Source: Thermodesulfobacteriota bacterium (lineage in GTDB: Bacteria; Desulfobacterota; WTBG01; CAIYCZ01; CAIRTM01). Taken from it: 62,739 nucleotides of DNA. Below are positions 14,944 to 43,775 of this stretch, piece by piece. Location of the stretch: the NCBI GenBank assembly GCA_028282925.1, contig JANQGV010000158.1:1-62739 (forward strand). The letters run 5' to 3'. How positions within the stretch are numbered: position 1 is the stretch's first letter; each line of letters begins with the position of its first letter. Made by a program: the position numbers and the translations under genes. The notes beneath the pieces were generated by a model, which searched no databases, was not told the DNA's origin, and saw only the letters and a program-made list of their open reading frames with translations.

Positions 14944-14969
14944 GTTTTAGTGATACCATGCGCTAAAAC
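14944..14969. promoter_or_regulatory. Inverted repeat before aldo/keto reductase
   Basis: GTTTTAG at 14944-14950 and CTAAAAC at 14963-14969 form a 7-bp inverted repeat with a 12-base spacer, centred about 43 bases before the reductase start. This is an operator-like arrangement. No regulator is known, and a leader hairpin is equally possible. Confidence 0.35.
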
Positions 14970-14999
14970 AATACCACTAATCATACTGAAAGAAAAATC

Positions 15000-16040
15000 A
15001 TGAAAAAGATTCGACTCGGCAAAACCGACCTTATGGTACCCCAAATTGGTTTCGGCGGCATTCCGATTCAGACCCCTCCCGAAGAAACGGCCATAAGCCT
15101 TGTACGTGATTCCCTTGACCTGGGTATTAACTTCATCGATACTTCGCGCATGTACACCAACAGCGAGGAACGTATCGGCAAGGCGATACAGGGACGTCGT
15201 CAGGACGTTTACCTGGCAAGCAAGTCCGCTTCCCGAACAACAGATGCCGTAGAAGCCGACCTTGAAACCAGTTTAGGGAACCTGCAGACCGATTACATCG
15301 ACCTCTACCAGTTTCACAATGTGAGCACATCCGAAGACTTACAGGCGGTGCTTGCCCCGGGCGGCCCGCTGGATGTTGTGCGCACAGCCCGCGATAAAGG
15401 CCGCATACGTCACATCGGCATAACATCACACCGTCTCTCGGTGGCAAAAGAGGCCATACTGACCGGTCATTTCGAAACCGTTATGGTGGCGCTCAACTTT
15501 GTCAACACCGAAGCGGCCGATGAACTGTTGCCCCTGGCGAAAGATCGTGATGTGGGTGTAATCATCATGAAGCCTATGGCCGGGGGCATGCTGGAAAACC
15601 CGGCGCTGTCTTTCAAGTACCTTCGACGGTTCCCGGACGTGCTGACCCTGATCGGCATTGCCCGCCGGGGTGAAATGAAAGAAATACTCGATATTGTGCA
15701 GGCCACCGACCCGATCACACCGGAAGAAGAAAAGGAGATGGACCGCATCCGCGATGAGTTGGGAACCGGATTTTGCCGCATGTGCAACTACTGCCAGCCC
15801 TGCCCCCAAAAAATCATGATATCAGCCATTATGTATACCCAGGTTGCCCTTAAACGCTTTGACCCCGAGCGTATCTTCACCGGCGAATGGGACTCGTTTA
15901 TGAACAAAATAGAGGACTGTGTCGACTGTGGTAAATGCGAAGAGCGTTGCCCGTATCAACTGCCCATACGGGAACGCATACGTGAACTGGGCACCCGGTA
16001 CTTCGCCGCCCGTGACGCGTATATGGCGCAATCAAAATGA
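15000..16040 (+). CDS. Aldo/keto reductase with C-terminal 4Fe-4S domain
   Basis: 346 residues. The N-terminal about 250 residues are an aldo/keto reductase TIM barrel: GFGGIPI, LGINFIDTSRMYTNSEERIG (the catalytic Asp/Tyr region), LASKSA (Lys), LDLYQFH-like DYIDLYQFHN, then IMKPMAGG. The C-terminus carries two cysteine clusters, CRMCNYCQPCP (about 257) and CVDCGKCEERCP (about 309), consistent with 4Fe-4S binding. This fused subtype is common in anaerobes and probably couples carbonyl reduction to ferredoxin-like electron transfer; the substrate is unknown. An FAD oxidoreductase starts 9 bases after the stop, so the two likely form an operon. Confidence 0.88.
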   Translation: MKKIRLGKTDLMVPQIGFGGIPIQTPPEETAISLVRDSLDLGINFIDTSRMYTNSEERIGKAIQGRRQDVYLASKSASRTTDAVEADLETSLGNLQTDYIDLYQFHNVSTSEDLQAVLAPGGPLDVVRTARDKGRIRHIGITSHRLSVAKEAILTGHFETVMVALNFVNTEAADELLPLAKDRDVGVIIMKPMAGGMLENPALSFKYLRRFPDVLTLIGIARRGEMKEILDIVQATDPITPEEEKEMDRIRDELGTGFCRMCNYCQPCPQKIMISAIMYTQVALKRFDPERIFTGEWDSFMNKIEDCVDCGKCEERCPYQLPIRERIRELGTRYFAARDAYMAQSK

Positions 16041-16049
16041 CCGTGTACA

Positions 16050-17363
16050 ATGAAACAGTTTGACCTCATCATAGTCGGCGCCGGACCCGGCGGGCTCGGT
16101 GCCTGCTTGCAGGCCGCAACGCGCGGCCTTAAAACCGCGCTGATAGAACGCCGTTCAATCCTGTCCCCCCTTACGCGCTCCTGTTCTGAAGGCATTCTCT
16201 ACGAGGAAGAATACGGCGGTGATGCCGTTGATATCGACAGGGAGCAGAGACGGATCCGTTTTCGATCTGCCGACTTCTCCCTGCAGTATAGCGGTCCGGT
16301 CCGGTATGCCCCGGCATTCATAAACTTGTCTCCCGCCGGCAAGCCGATGCGTATTGTACGCTTCGACGGCAAGCCCGTTCATATTGTTGTCGACAAGGCC
16401 ATGATGCTTGAAGAGAATTTGGCAGCCGTTTGTACCGCAGGTGTTGATTTCTTTCCCGGCCATACCGTTCTCTCCGTTGAAAACGAACCTGACGCAGTCA
16501 CTGTGCACACCGACCGGCAATCCTTTTCCGGCCGCTTCCTGATCGCCTCCGACGGGCATAATTCACTCTGCGCCCGCAGCATCGATCTCAACCGGGACAG
16601 AACCTTTTACGGTACCATGATGACCGCCTGCTGGCATATAGAAGGCTTCGAACCCCCTGAGCCCTGCCACATGCATCTGCTTGAAGGGGCCGGCGGCCCG
16701 GCCATGATCTGCTTCTGTCCCCGTGTGTACGACGGCCAGTACAATGTCGTTCTTGGAGATTTCAATCCCGCAACCGACTTTGACGCTCTTTTCAGCAGGA
16801 TACAATCATCGTCCTATCTTTCGCGTTTTTTTACCGGCAGTTTTGCAGTGCGTCATAAACTCGCCTGCATCCTGAACTTGTTCAGCCCCCTCACCGACCC
16901 CTGCAGAGGATCCACCTTTGTCATCGGTGATGCGGCCTGGATGGGTCAGACCAGCAACACCCATGCAGCCCTGTGCGGATATCATGCAGTTGAGGCAATC
17001 CACACCGCTTTGCAGAACGGTCTAACCGGCGACGCCGTTTTTGTACCGTACCGCACGTGGTGGCAGAAAAGCTATGTGAATCACATGATGATTCCCGGAG
17101 CCAATATGTTTGAACTGCTCAACGGCAGCGAACTCGATACCCTGTTTGCTGCCTTGCCGGATTCCATTTCCGGATCCCTGGAGCCCCACGCCGCCCGAGA
17201 CTATATGGGTCGCTTTTTCCAGCAGTTTCTACCCAAACTGGGCATAACCCACCCCGCGCTTGTCCAGAAAATAGCCGCCATCCAGCAACTTGACAAAGAA
17301 AGCGCCTGGGAGGACAAAAGAAAGCTCGGATTTCCTGTACGCAAAACGGTCCCCCTGGACTAA
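16050..17363 (+). CDS. FAD-dependent oxidoreductase, geranylgeranyl reductase/FixC type
   Basis: 437 residues. The N-terminal Rossmann motif is DLIIVGAGPGGLGACLQAA (residues 4-22). A second FAD-contact block is LIASDGHNSLCAR (about 162-174), and a third is FVIGDAAWMGQ (about 290-300). This order is typical of the GGR/FixC/para-hydroxybenzoate hydroxylase superfamily. The substrate could be an isoprenoid lipid or quinone but cannot be fixed from sequence. It is co-oriented and closely spaced with the preceding ferredoxin-tailed reductase, which may be its redox partner. No clear ribosome binding site is seen before the ATG. Confidence 0.75.
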   Translation: MKQFDLIIVGAGPGGLGACLQAATRGLKTALIERRSILSPLTRSCSEGILYEEEYGGDAVDIDREQRRIRFRSADFSLQYSGPVRYAPAFINLSPAGKPMRIVRFDGKPVHIVVDKAMMLEENLAAVCTAGVDFFPGHTVLSVENEPDAVTVHTDRQSFSGRFLIASDGHNSLCARSIDLNRDRTFYGTMMTACWHIEGFEPPEPCHMHLLEGAGGPAMICFCPRVYDGQYNVVLGDFNPATDFDALFSRIQSSSYLSRFFTGSFAVRHKLACILNLFSPLTDPCRGSTFVIGDAAWMGQTSNTHAALCGYHAVEAIHTALQNGLTGDAVFVPYRTWWQKSYVNHMMIPGANMFELLNGSELDTLFAALPDSISGSLEPHAARDYMGRFFQQFLPKLGITHPALVQKIAAIQQLDKESAWEDKRKLGFPVRKTVPLD

Positions 17364-40626: not shown

Positions 40627-40655
40627 TTGACAGAAAAACGGTTTTCATGTATTCT
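40627..40655 (+). promoter_or_regulatory. Predicted sigma70 promoter of selenoprotein gene
   Basis: TTGACA (40627-40632), 17-base spacer, TATTCT (40650-40655), 43 bases before the ATG at 40699. The rest of the 308-base gap shows nothing recognisable. Confidence 0.65.
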
Positions 40656-40698
40656 TAATGGCTTAAAGAATCGCAAAAACACTTAGAGGAATACAAAA

Positions 40699-41304
40699 AT
40701 GAGCATTTTGATTCAGATCTACTCCGATTACATATGACCCTTTTGCTATGTCGGCAAGGGTCTTGTCGATGAATTGAGCCGGGAATTCGATATTGAGGAA
40801 GAATGGCTGTCCTTTGAAATTCACCCGGAAACACCTGCGGCAGGGGTGCTGCTGACTGAACACCTGCCCCATATTGACTGGGACGACCTGTACCGCAATC
40901 TCAAACAGCAGGGGGCCCGGTACGACATCATTTTTAATGATGTGACCATTTTGGCCAATTCCCGCAAGGTGCTGGAAGCCAGCGAATTTGCCCGCGACAA
41001 CGGGAAATATGACACATTTCACGAAGCGGTCTTTAAAGCCTACTTTACCGACCTGAAGGATATCGGCCGGCTTGATGTTATTTACAGTGTTGCAGATGAG
41101 GTGGGGCTCGACACTGCCGGGCTGCAGCAGGCCCTGGAGCAGGACACCTACTATCCACGTCTGCAGCAGACCACTGCCATGGCCCACAGCATGGGCATCA
41201 ACAGTGCCCCGACCTTTATTATCAATAAAAAATATTCTGTTGTCGGCGCACAGCCCACTGATGCGTTCCGGGACATTTTACAAAAAGCCGCCTCCGAAGG
41301 CTAA
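40699..41304 (+). CDS. FrnE/DsbA-family selenoprotein (UGA = selenocysteine 13)
   Basis: 201 residues if the in-frame UGA at 40735-40737 is read as Sec. The frame opens at ATG 40699 with AGAGGA 8 bases upstream. It reads MSILIQIYSDYI-U-PFCYVGKG, so U13-P-F-C16 replaces the C-P-x-C active site of FrnE-type DsbA proteins. The rest fits the family: a helical insert, then the cis-Pro loop INSAPTFIINKKYSVVGAQP. A SECIS-like hairpin lies just downstream of the UGA. Starting after the UGA would discard the catalytic site and the first beta strand. Predicted cytoplasmic thiol/disulfide oxidoreductase, with no signal peptide. It has its own promoter and ends against a family B repeat. FrnE-like proteins are among known bacterial selenoprotein families. 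Confidence 0.85.
40749..40771 (+). promoter_or_regulatory. Bacterial SECIS element
   Basis: A 10-bp stem (TGTCGGCAAG core pairing with CTTGTCGATG, with G-U pairs) closes on the loop GGT at 40759-40761. The loop lies about 21 bases after the UGA. The apical sequence CAAGGGTCTTG resembles the GCAGGTCTGC loop of the E. coli fdhF SECIS, with G and U in the SelB-contact positions. Position and shape fit the bacterial SECIS rules. Confidence 0.75.
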
Positions 41305-42623: not shown

Positions 42624-43691
42624 TCAGGCAGCCCCCAAAAGAGCCACTCCCTGCTTGTATCCAAGGCCCCCGTTGCCGTGAACCGCACCCAGAGACGTCT
42701 TGCCGCTGCGGATTTTCTCATACATGCATATCAGCCCGTTCAATGCCGGATTGTTCCAGGGAGCCCTTGCAACATTCATCCCGCCGGTAATGGTAACGGC
42801 ATGTTCGTCCAGAACAGGGGCAATATCCTCAAATGAGGGCGCTATGCCGCTTGCCAGCAGGAAAGCCATGGGCACCACCGGAAAACAGGAATAGACCTCA
42901 AGCAGGGCCTGCCCCTGCAGAAACAGATCGGCAAAAGGGACGCCTGCCCGGTCACAGGCATAATCATAGGCCTGCCGTAAATGGTCGTAGGTTGCAATTT
43001 CTGCTACATGAGCCGGACCGTCTCCGTATAGTTCAGCGGTTGCCACTCCCAGTACTGCTACCCGGTCGTGGGCGGCTATGTCAAGGCGATCCGCCAGTGC
43101 GACTGAGGCTACGATGAGCGCTCCGCTGAAATCGATGACCGGATTTGCACAATCCACTCCGCGAAAAAGGTCGGTGATATAGGCAAACCATTTGTCGGAA
43201 GGTGCTTCATAGGAACCGTTTTCCAGTGCTGTGCGCGCGTAGTTGCCATACAGCATCCCGGCCGCCTGCTTGAACAACTCCGGGCGTATACCGGCTTGCT
43301 CAATAAAAGCATGCGCGAGAAGAGTATACGCTTCCGGCAGCGGACAATTCTCTCCGTAAATATTCATAAGACTTCGCCGGTCGGCCGTTCTGTTACTGAA
43401 ATCGGAAATCAGCCGATCGGTTCCTTCTATTACGACTGCGAGGCCGGGATGCTGCACAATCAGATCAACGGCGCGACTCAGCGCTTCCAGCGGAGCGCAG
43501 CCGCTCCTGAAATGGTTTTCCTCAAGCGGAGACTTCCAGCCTTTTTCAAGTGGATCGATTTCCAAACGAACCGTTTCTTCAGCAAAGCGGCAAAGCGCAT
43601 CTTCAAGGCCGGGGGCCATGGCCGGACCGTTGCGACCGTCGATGGTTCGCTGGGCGGCAATAATAAGGGGTTTGTTTGCTTGACTGTTCAT
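42624..43691 (-). CDS. Thiolase-superfamily acyltransferase-like protein
   Basis: 355 residues from ATG 43691 (start uncertain; ATG 43706 is an alternative). The fold resembles acetyl-CoA acetyltransferase/SCP-2-type thiolases. It has NPVIDFSGALIVASVALADR, AYDYACDRAGVPFADLFL, ITGGMNVARAPWNNPALNGL, and the terminal GAVHGNGGLGYKQGVALLG, like the xNGG...KHAxGVY ending of thiolases. The usual nucleophilic Cys motif is not evident, so it may not be a classical thiolase. It converges on nothing; the two-component genes lie upstream on the same strand. Confidence 0.55.
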   Translation of the reverse strand: MNSQANKPLIIAAQRTIDGRNGPAMAPGLEDALCRFAEETVRLEIDPLEKGWKSPLEENHFRSGCAPLEALSRAVDLIVQHPGLAVVIEGTDRLISDFSNRTADRRSLMNIYGENCPLPEAYTLLAHAFIEQAGIRPELFKQAAGMLYGNYARTALENGSYEAPSDKWFAYITDLFRGVDCANPVIDFSGALIVASVALADRLDIAAHDRVAVLGVATAELYGDGPAHVAEIATYDHLRQAYDYACDRAGVPFADLFLQGQALLEVYSCFPVVPMAFLLASGIAPSFEDIAPVLDEHAVTITGGMNVARAPWNNPALNGLICMYEKIRSGKTSLGAVHGNGGLGYKQGVALLGAA

Positions 43692-43775
43692 AACATTTCT
43701 GCACATACGGTATACTGGACGTGTCCGGGGAACAAAAGGCGCTCCGGCAGAAGCACGGCATCCTTTCAGCAACAG

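Follow-up and report, generated by a model that had tools for sequence, protein, structure and literature searches.

A FrnE/DsbA-type gene of a Thermodesulfobacteriota bacterium with an in-frame UGA codon that is very probably read as selenocysteine

Our work describes a gene of a Thermodesulfobacteriota bacterium in which an in-frame UGA codon is, on strong comparative support, very likely to be recoded as selenocysteine (Sec). The gene lies at positions 40699 to 41304 on the forward strand of the window, i. e. the whole stretch of 62,739 nucleotides that was analysed, and would encode a FrnE/DsbA-type selenoprotein of 201 amino acids with Sec as residue 13. From the ATG at 40699, the frame contains two stop codons only, the TGA at 40735 to 40737 (codon 13) and the TAA at 41302 to 41304, and a single in-frame TGA in an otherwise open family sequence argues for recoding. 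If the UGA is read as Sec, the product begins with MSILIQIYSDYI-U-PFC, and U13 replaces the first cysteine of a CPFC motif; this agrees base for base with the initial annotation, which had placed the UGA where the first catalytic cysteine is expected. The start codon proposed there is present as well, with a Shine-Dalgarno-like AGAGGA at 40685 to 40690 of the same strand, 8 nucleotides ahead of the ATG as read from the sequence. The promoter that had also been claimed fared less well: A TTGACA-17-TATTCT sequence is indeed seen at 40627 to 40655 (+), but it is a consensus match at 10 of 12 positions and suggestive only, since the consensus scan finds four such sites in the stretch as compared to 1.6 expected, a mild enrichment.

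Sequence and predicted fold both support the assignment of the encoded protein to the FrnE/DsbA family (COG2761-like; we take COG2761 to be the FrnE COG). The sequence downstream of the UGA is unbroken family sequence up to the TAA, as had been proposed, and the DSBA domain PF01323 spans residues 5 to 195 of the 201 (Pfam, E=1.9e-28). The closest sequence match in the PDB is D. radiodurans FrnE (DR_0659; PDB 5cnw, 5co3, 5coh, 5cp1, 5xwh), with E=5e-21 for 5cnw, and an AlphaFold2 model calculated from a 10-sequence alignment (pLDDT 86.9) has structures of this same protein as all of its top five fold matches (TM 0.84-0.87; 5coh, E=3.7e-15). Next in rank among the solved structures, both by sequence and by fold, is SCO1869 of Streptomyces coelicolor (3gl5), which is more distant (E=1.2e-10) and differs in having a cysteine active site. 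Like D. radiodurans FrnE, the predicted protein has a CPxC-type active site close to the N-terminus, U13-P14-F15-C16, although here Sec stands for the first cysteine. Residues D10, Y11, P14, C16 and P171 are invariant in our alignment A1; P171, in the cis-Pro region SAPT, is the proline that faces the active site, and Cys16 (codon 40744 to 40746, forward strand) is the presumed resolving residue. The proposed identity with FrnE thus holds for sequence and predicted fold, but not for the C-terminal CXXXXC regeneration motif of D. radiodurans FrnE: This motif is absent, as Cys16 is the sole cysteine encoded in the whole frame. The protein is therefore to be regarded as a member of the FrnE family rather than of the motif-bearing D. 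radiodurans subtype. The CXXXXC motif has been reported to be absent from some FrnE proteins (PMC8945050).

The part of the protein that precedes the UGA is informative in two respects. The strand formed by residues 3 to 9 is part of the predicted fold, and close relatives carry it as well. Since both the alignment and the model place this first strand from residue 3 onwards, there would be no space for a signal peptide, and the selenoprotein is presumably cytoplasmic, like FrnE. The same residues bear on the idea that the TGA is an ordinary stop codon that ends a frame of 12 codons, leaving either a truncated DsbA-like protein made from a downstream start such as the TTG at 40774, or a pseudogene. 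Standard ORF calling does yield only a 176-aa ORF from this TTG, in line with the earlier statement that standard annotation truncates such genes. However, a conserved stretch ahead of the UGA, with D10 and Y11 invariant and the strand 3-9 belonging to the predicted fold, is at odds with an ordinary stop.

A further line of evidence comes from the RNA downstream of the UGA. The SECIS-like hairpin that had been noticed with a GGU loop about 21 bases after the UGA was recovered at 40750 to 40770 (+): The sequence GTCGGCAAG-GGT-CTTGTCGAT is predicted to form a 9-bp stem with a 3-nt apical loop (GGU, 40759 to 40761) that begins 21 nt after the UGA, at -9.4 kcal/mol. Bacterial SECIS elements have been defined by a loop of 3-9 nt with a G in its first two positions, an upper stem of 4-16 bp, a location 16-37 nt after the UGA and an energy of at most -7.5 kcal/mol (PMC13188914), and the hairpin lies within these limits on all four counts. 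Rfam at gathering thresholds returned no SECIS match in the whole window, only two tRNA-Ser genes. An equally stable hairpin of the bSECIS type arose in 72 of 5000 synonymous-codon shuffles that preserve the protein (1.4%); chance formation is therefore unlikely even from the single gene, and in view of the comparative evidence it can be neglected. As the coding sequences align without gaps from the UGA onward, pairs could be counted directly: With positions numbered from 0 after the UGA, eight pairs connect 12-19 to 25-32, and in 79 distinct Sec genes these are formed to 85%, whereas pairs in slid control registers are formed to 25-51% and the same eight pairs in 70 Cys genes to 51%. Compensatory changes are found at pair 15/29 (G-C in 36, A-T in 31 and T-A in 5 of the 79 Sec genes), at pair 17/27 (T-A in 39, C-G in 34) and at pair 19/25 (C-G in 52, A-T in 22), the counts being per sequence and not per evolutionary event, with slid registers and Cys genes as controls. 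Loop position 21 is a G in 74 of the 79 Sec genes. A hairpin was scored in 74 Sec genes, 72 of which have a loop distance of 19-22 nt; in the Cys genes this distance is scattered. Thus, Sec genes preserve the hairpin in a single register, with compensatory changes, and Cys genes do not, which supports the recoding of the UGA as Sec. A point against this explanation is that a few Sec homologues, e. g. L018 and L151, have a mismatch within the stem; a strict scan left 12 Sec genes without a contiguous stem, mostly owing to one such mismatch.

Recoding of the UGA as Sec requires that the cell possesses a Sec system; the initial annotation had presumed that it does, with the genes outside the window. 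In the source genome (G000; 96% complete, 324 contigs) all four genes were found: selC, a tRNA-Sec with the anticodon TCA, at C284:1752-1843 (79 bits), selA directly after it on the same contig (C284:1938-3269), selB on C221 (345 bits), and selD, with one in-frame TGA of its own, on C9. The presence of selA, selB, selC and selD in the same genome supports the Sec reading. In the selC-selA locus (L199, G000:C284:1752-3269), selA scores 456 bits and is clearly more divergent than in most relatives, where 560-650 bits are reached; the selA genes of G001 and G007 are divergent likewise.

The codon itself was followed across homologues. A strong homologue (at least 164 bits) was found in 78 of the 395 phylum genomes; its frame holds a TGA in 65 of them and none in the other 13. 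A selA over the cut-off is present in 64 of the 65 genomes with the Sec form, again in favour of Sec recoding, as compared to 10 of the 13 without TGA (Fisher p=0.014). In 156 distinct sequences, comprising the phylum homologues and those from named genome contigs, the catalytic codon is TGA in 86 and otherwise only TGC or TGT (70), which is exactly the alternation of Sec and Cys at position 13 that had been anticipated, and an argument for Sec at this position. Records with Sec forms are assigned by name to Thermodesulfobacteriota, Nitrospirota, Bacillota, Actinomycetota, Rokuibacteriota, Chloroflexota and Pseudomonadota, although they are mostly metagenome bins in which single phylum assignments may be wrong. 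On two Bathyarchaeota contigs (L083, L085), a Cys FrnE groups with bacterial Sec forms, which suggests either transfer between domains or misbinned contigs. Since 86 distinct homologues have a UGA where the catalytic Cys is otherwise encoded, and a covarying RNA structure follows it, an ordinary stop codon at 40735 is very improbable; it is refuted in effect by the conservation ahead of the codon together with the covariation of the SECIS. It is also conceivable that the UGA is recoded mainly to something other than Sec: It might be read as tryptophan by a variant code, as cysteine by the Sec machinery, or by near-cognate read-through. The tRNA-Sec machinery is able to insert cysteine under some conditions, which speaks for the second of these options. 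Against them stand the alternation of the codon with Cys codons only and the full Sec system of the genome with its tRNA-Sec of anticodon TCA; moreover, tryptophan insertion or unspecific read-through needs no SECIS. We regard recoding to anything other than mainly Sec as extremely improbable.

Relatives of the same family and order that have the FrnE gene all carry TGA, with the exception of G002. This genome belongs to the same bacterial family and is 97% complete, and its FrnE gene (L202, G002:C160, 6569-7243; protein L015, 56% identical to the Sec protein by BLAST) has TGC at position 13. It differs from the Sec gene not only in this codon: no SECIS-type hairpin is predicted in it, and selA, selB, selD and tRNA-Sec are all absent from the G002 genome at the cut-offs used. 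The coincidence of a Cys form with the lack of sel genes is a further argument for Sec in the TGA form. In a FastTree phylogeny, the G002 protein is nested among Sec forms of the same family, with support of 81-87 for the enclosing forks, and this position suggests that Sec reverted to Cys as the Sec system was lost. G230 and G272 likewise have a Cys FrnE and lack selA, but they sit within an all-Cys branch. The TGC of G002 could also be taken as a hint that the TGA at 40735 is a sequencing or assembly error for TGC or TGT: A single base separates these codons, and the assembly is in 324 contigs. Yet TGA is found in all the other relatives of the family and order that have the gene and in 86 distinct homologues from several phyla, and the SECIS present here is not predicted in the Cys gene of G002. 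There is next to no probability left for such an error. A second observation against recoding as Sec comes from G208, the genome of which is given as 100% complete: It carries a TGA FrnE with a SECIS (L186, G208:C37:23561-29127), but selA, selB and tRNA-Sec are not found over the cut-off. Since the protein groups with Rokuibacteriota, the contig may be foreign; alternatively, the Sec system may have been lost recently.

For the gene studied here, we propose that SelB and Sec-tRNA(Sec) would recode the UGA at 40735 under guidance of the SECIS at 40750-40770, with translation running on to the TAA at 41302. The selenolate of Sec13 would most likely attack the disulfide of a client protein or of a small thiol, Cys16 would resolve the mixed selenenylsulfide, and thioredoxin, glutathione or another such donor may then re-reduce the oxidised U13-C16 pair. 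The lack of the CXXXXC regeneration motif counts against the proposal. D. radiodurans FrnE is cytoplasmic and is the one protein for which disulfide reductase or isomerase activity is known (PMC8945050), and by analogy with this family a role as a cytosolic disulfide reductase or isomerase seems reasonably probable for the selenoprotein. It is tempting to speculate that the Sec FrnE is the older form in this bacterial family, the cysteine of G002 being a reversion that came with the loss of the whole Sec system in its lineage, and that Sec enzymes with a single cysteine are re-reduced externally and hence do without the CXXXXC motif; we consider this a tentative picture, with slightly less than even chances of being right.

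The neighbourhood adds little. The gene is flanked by opposite-strand genes for a RecD2-like helicase, a thioesterase and a flavodoxin-like reductase, which provide no clear functional lead. A RecD-like helicase adjoins the gene in one relative (L011), and a conserved neighbourhood was otherwise not found in the relatives' loci, the shortness of which makes this a weak test. In the absence of such conservation, gene context yields no functional clue. When 20 frames of the window that are interrupted by a single TGA were read through and compared with Pfam, no domain extended across the TGA. One of these codons, the TGA at 16038, was rejected as a Sec codon: It splits an aldo-keto reductase/ferredoxin frame from an FAD-dependent oxidoreductase frame at 14967-17363 (+), and as no domain spans it and the two adjacent open frames merely abut, the region is probably two genes. 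An open frame of 382 aa without a Pfam match lies at 42624-43772 (-) between two-component regulator and flavodoxin-like genes.

By its sequence, the gene is very probably a real selenoprotein gene of a family known since 2005, and a well-supported addition to it. DsbA-like UXXC selenoproteins were reported in that year from the Sargasso Sea, in Table 1 under COG2761 (PMC1088965), and subsequently from bacterial genomes and ocean metagenomes (PMC1794560, PMC2398784), where the label 'DsbA 1' was used (PMC2398784); a catalogue of 2026 lists 'DsbA-like protein form 1' (PMC13188914). That such selenoproteins are already known in bacteria had been stated correctly at the outset. We found no bacterial paper under 'FrnE selenoprotein', the literature filing the family as 'DsbA-like'. 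The published proteins (COG2761/PF01323) share with the gene the Pfam domain, a UxxC motif with Sec first, and an in-frame UGA followed by a bSECIS; compared by domain, motif and SECIS description, the gene differs from them as a new sequence only. The known picture of bacterial selenoproteins is thus unchanged. The example illustrates that gene finders that treat UGA as a stop codon miss the catalytic residue of the enzyme. Moreover, the survey (65 of 78 strong matches) points to Sec as the form that this FrnE branch usually takes in the phylum, and the pair of the source genome, with Sec and the full machinery, and G002, with Cys and none, offers a natural comparison of the benefit of Sec in a disulfide reductase.
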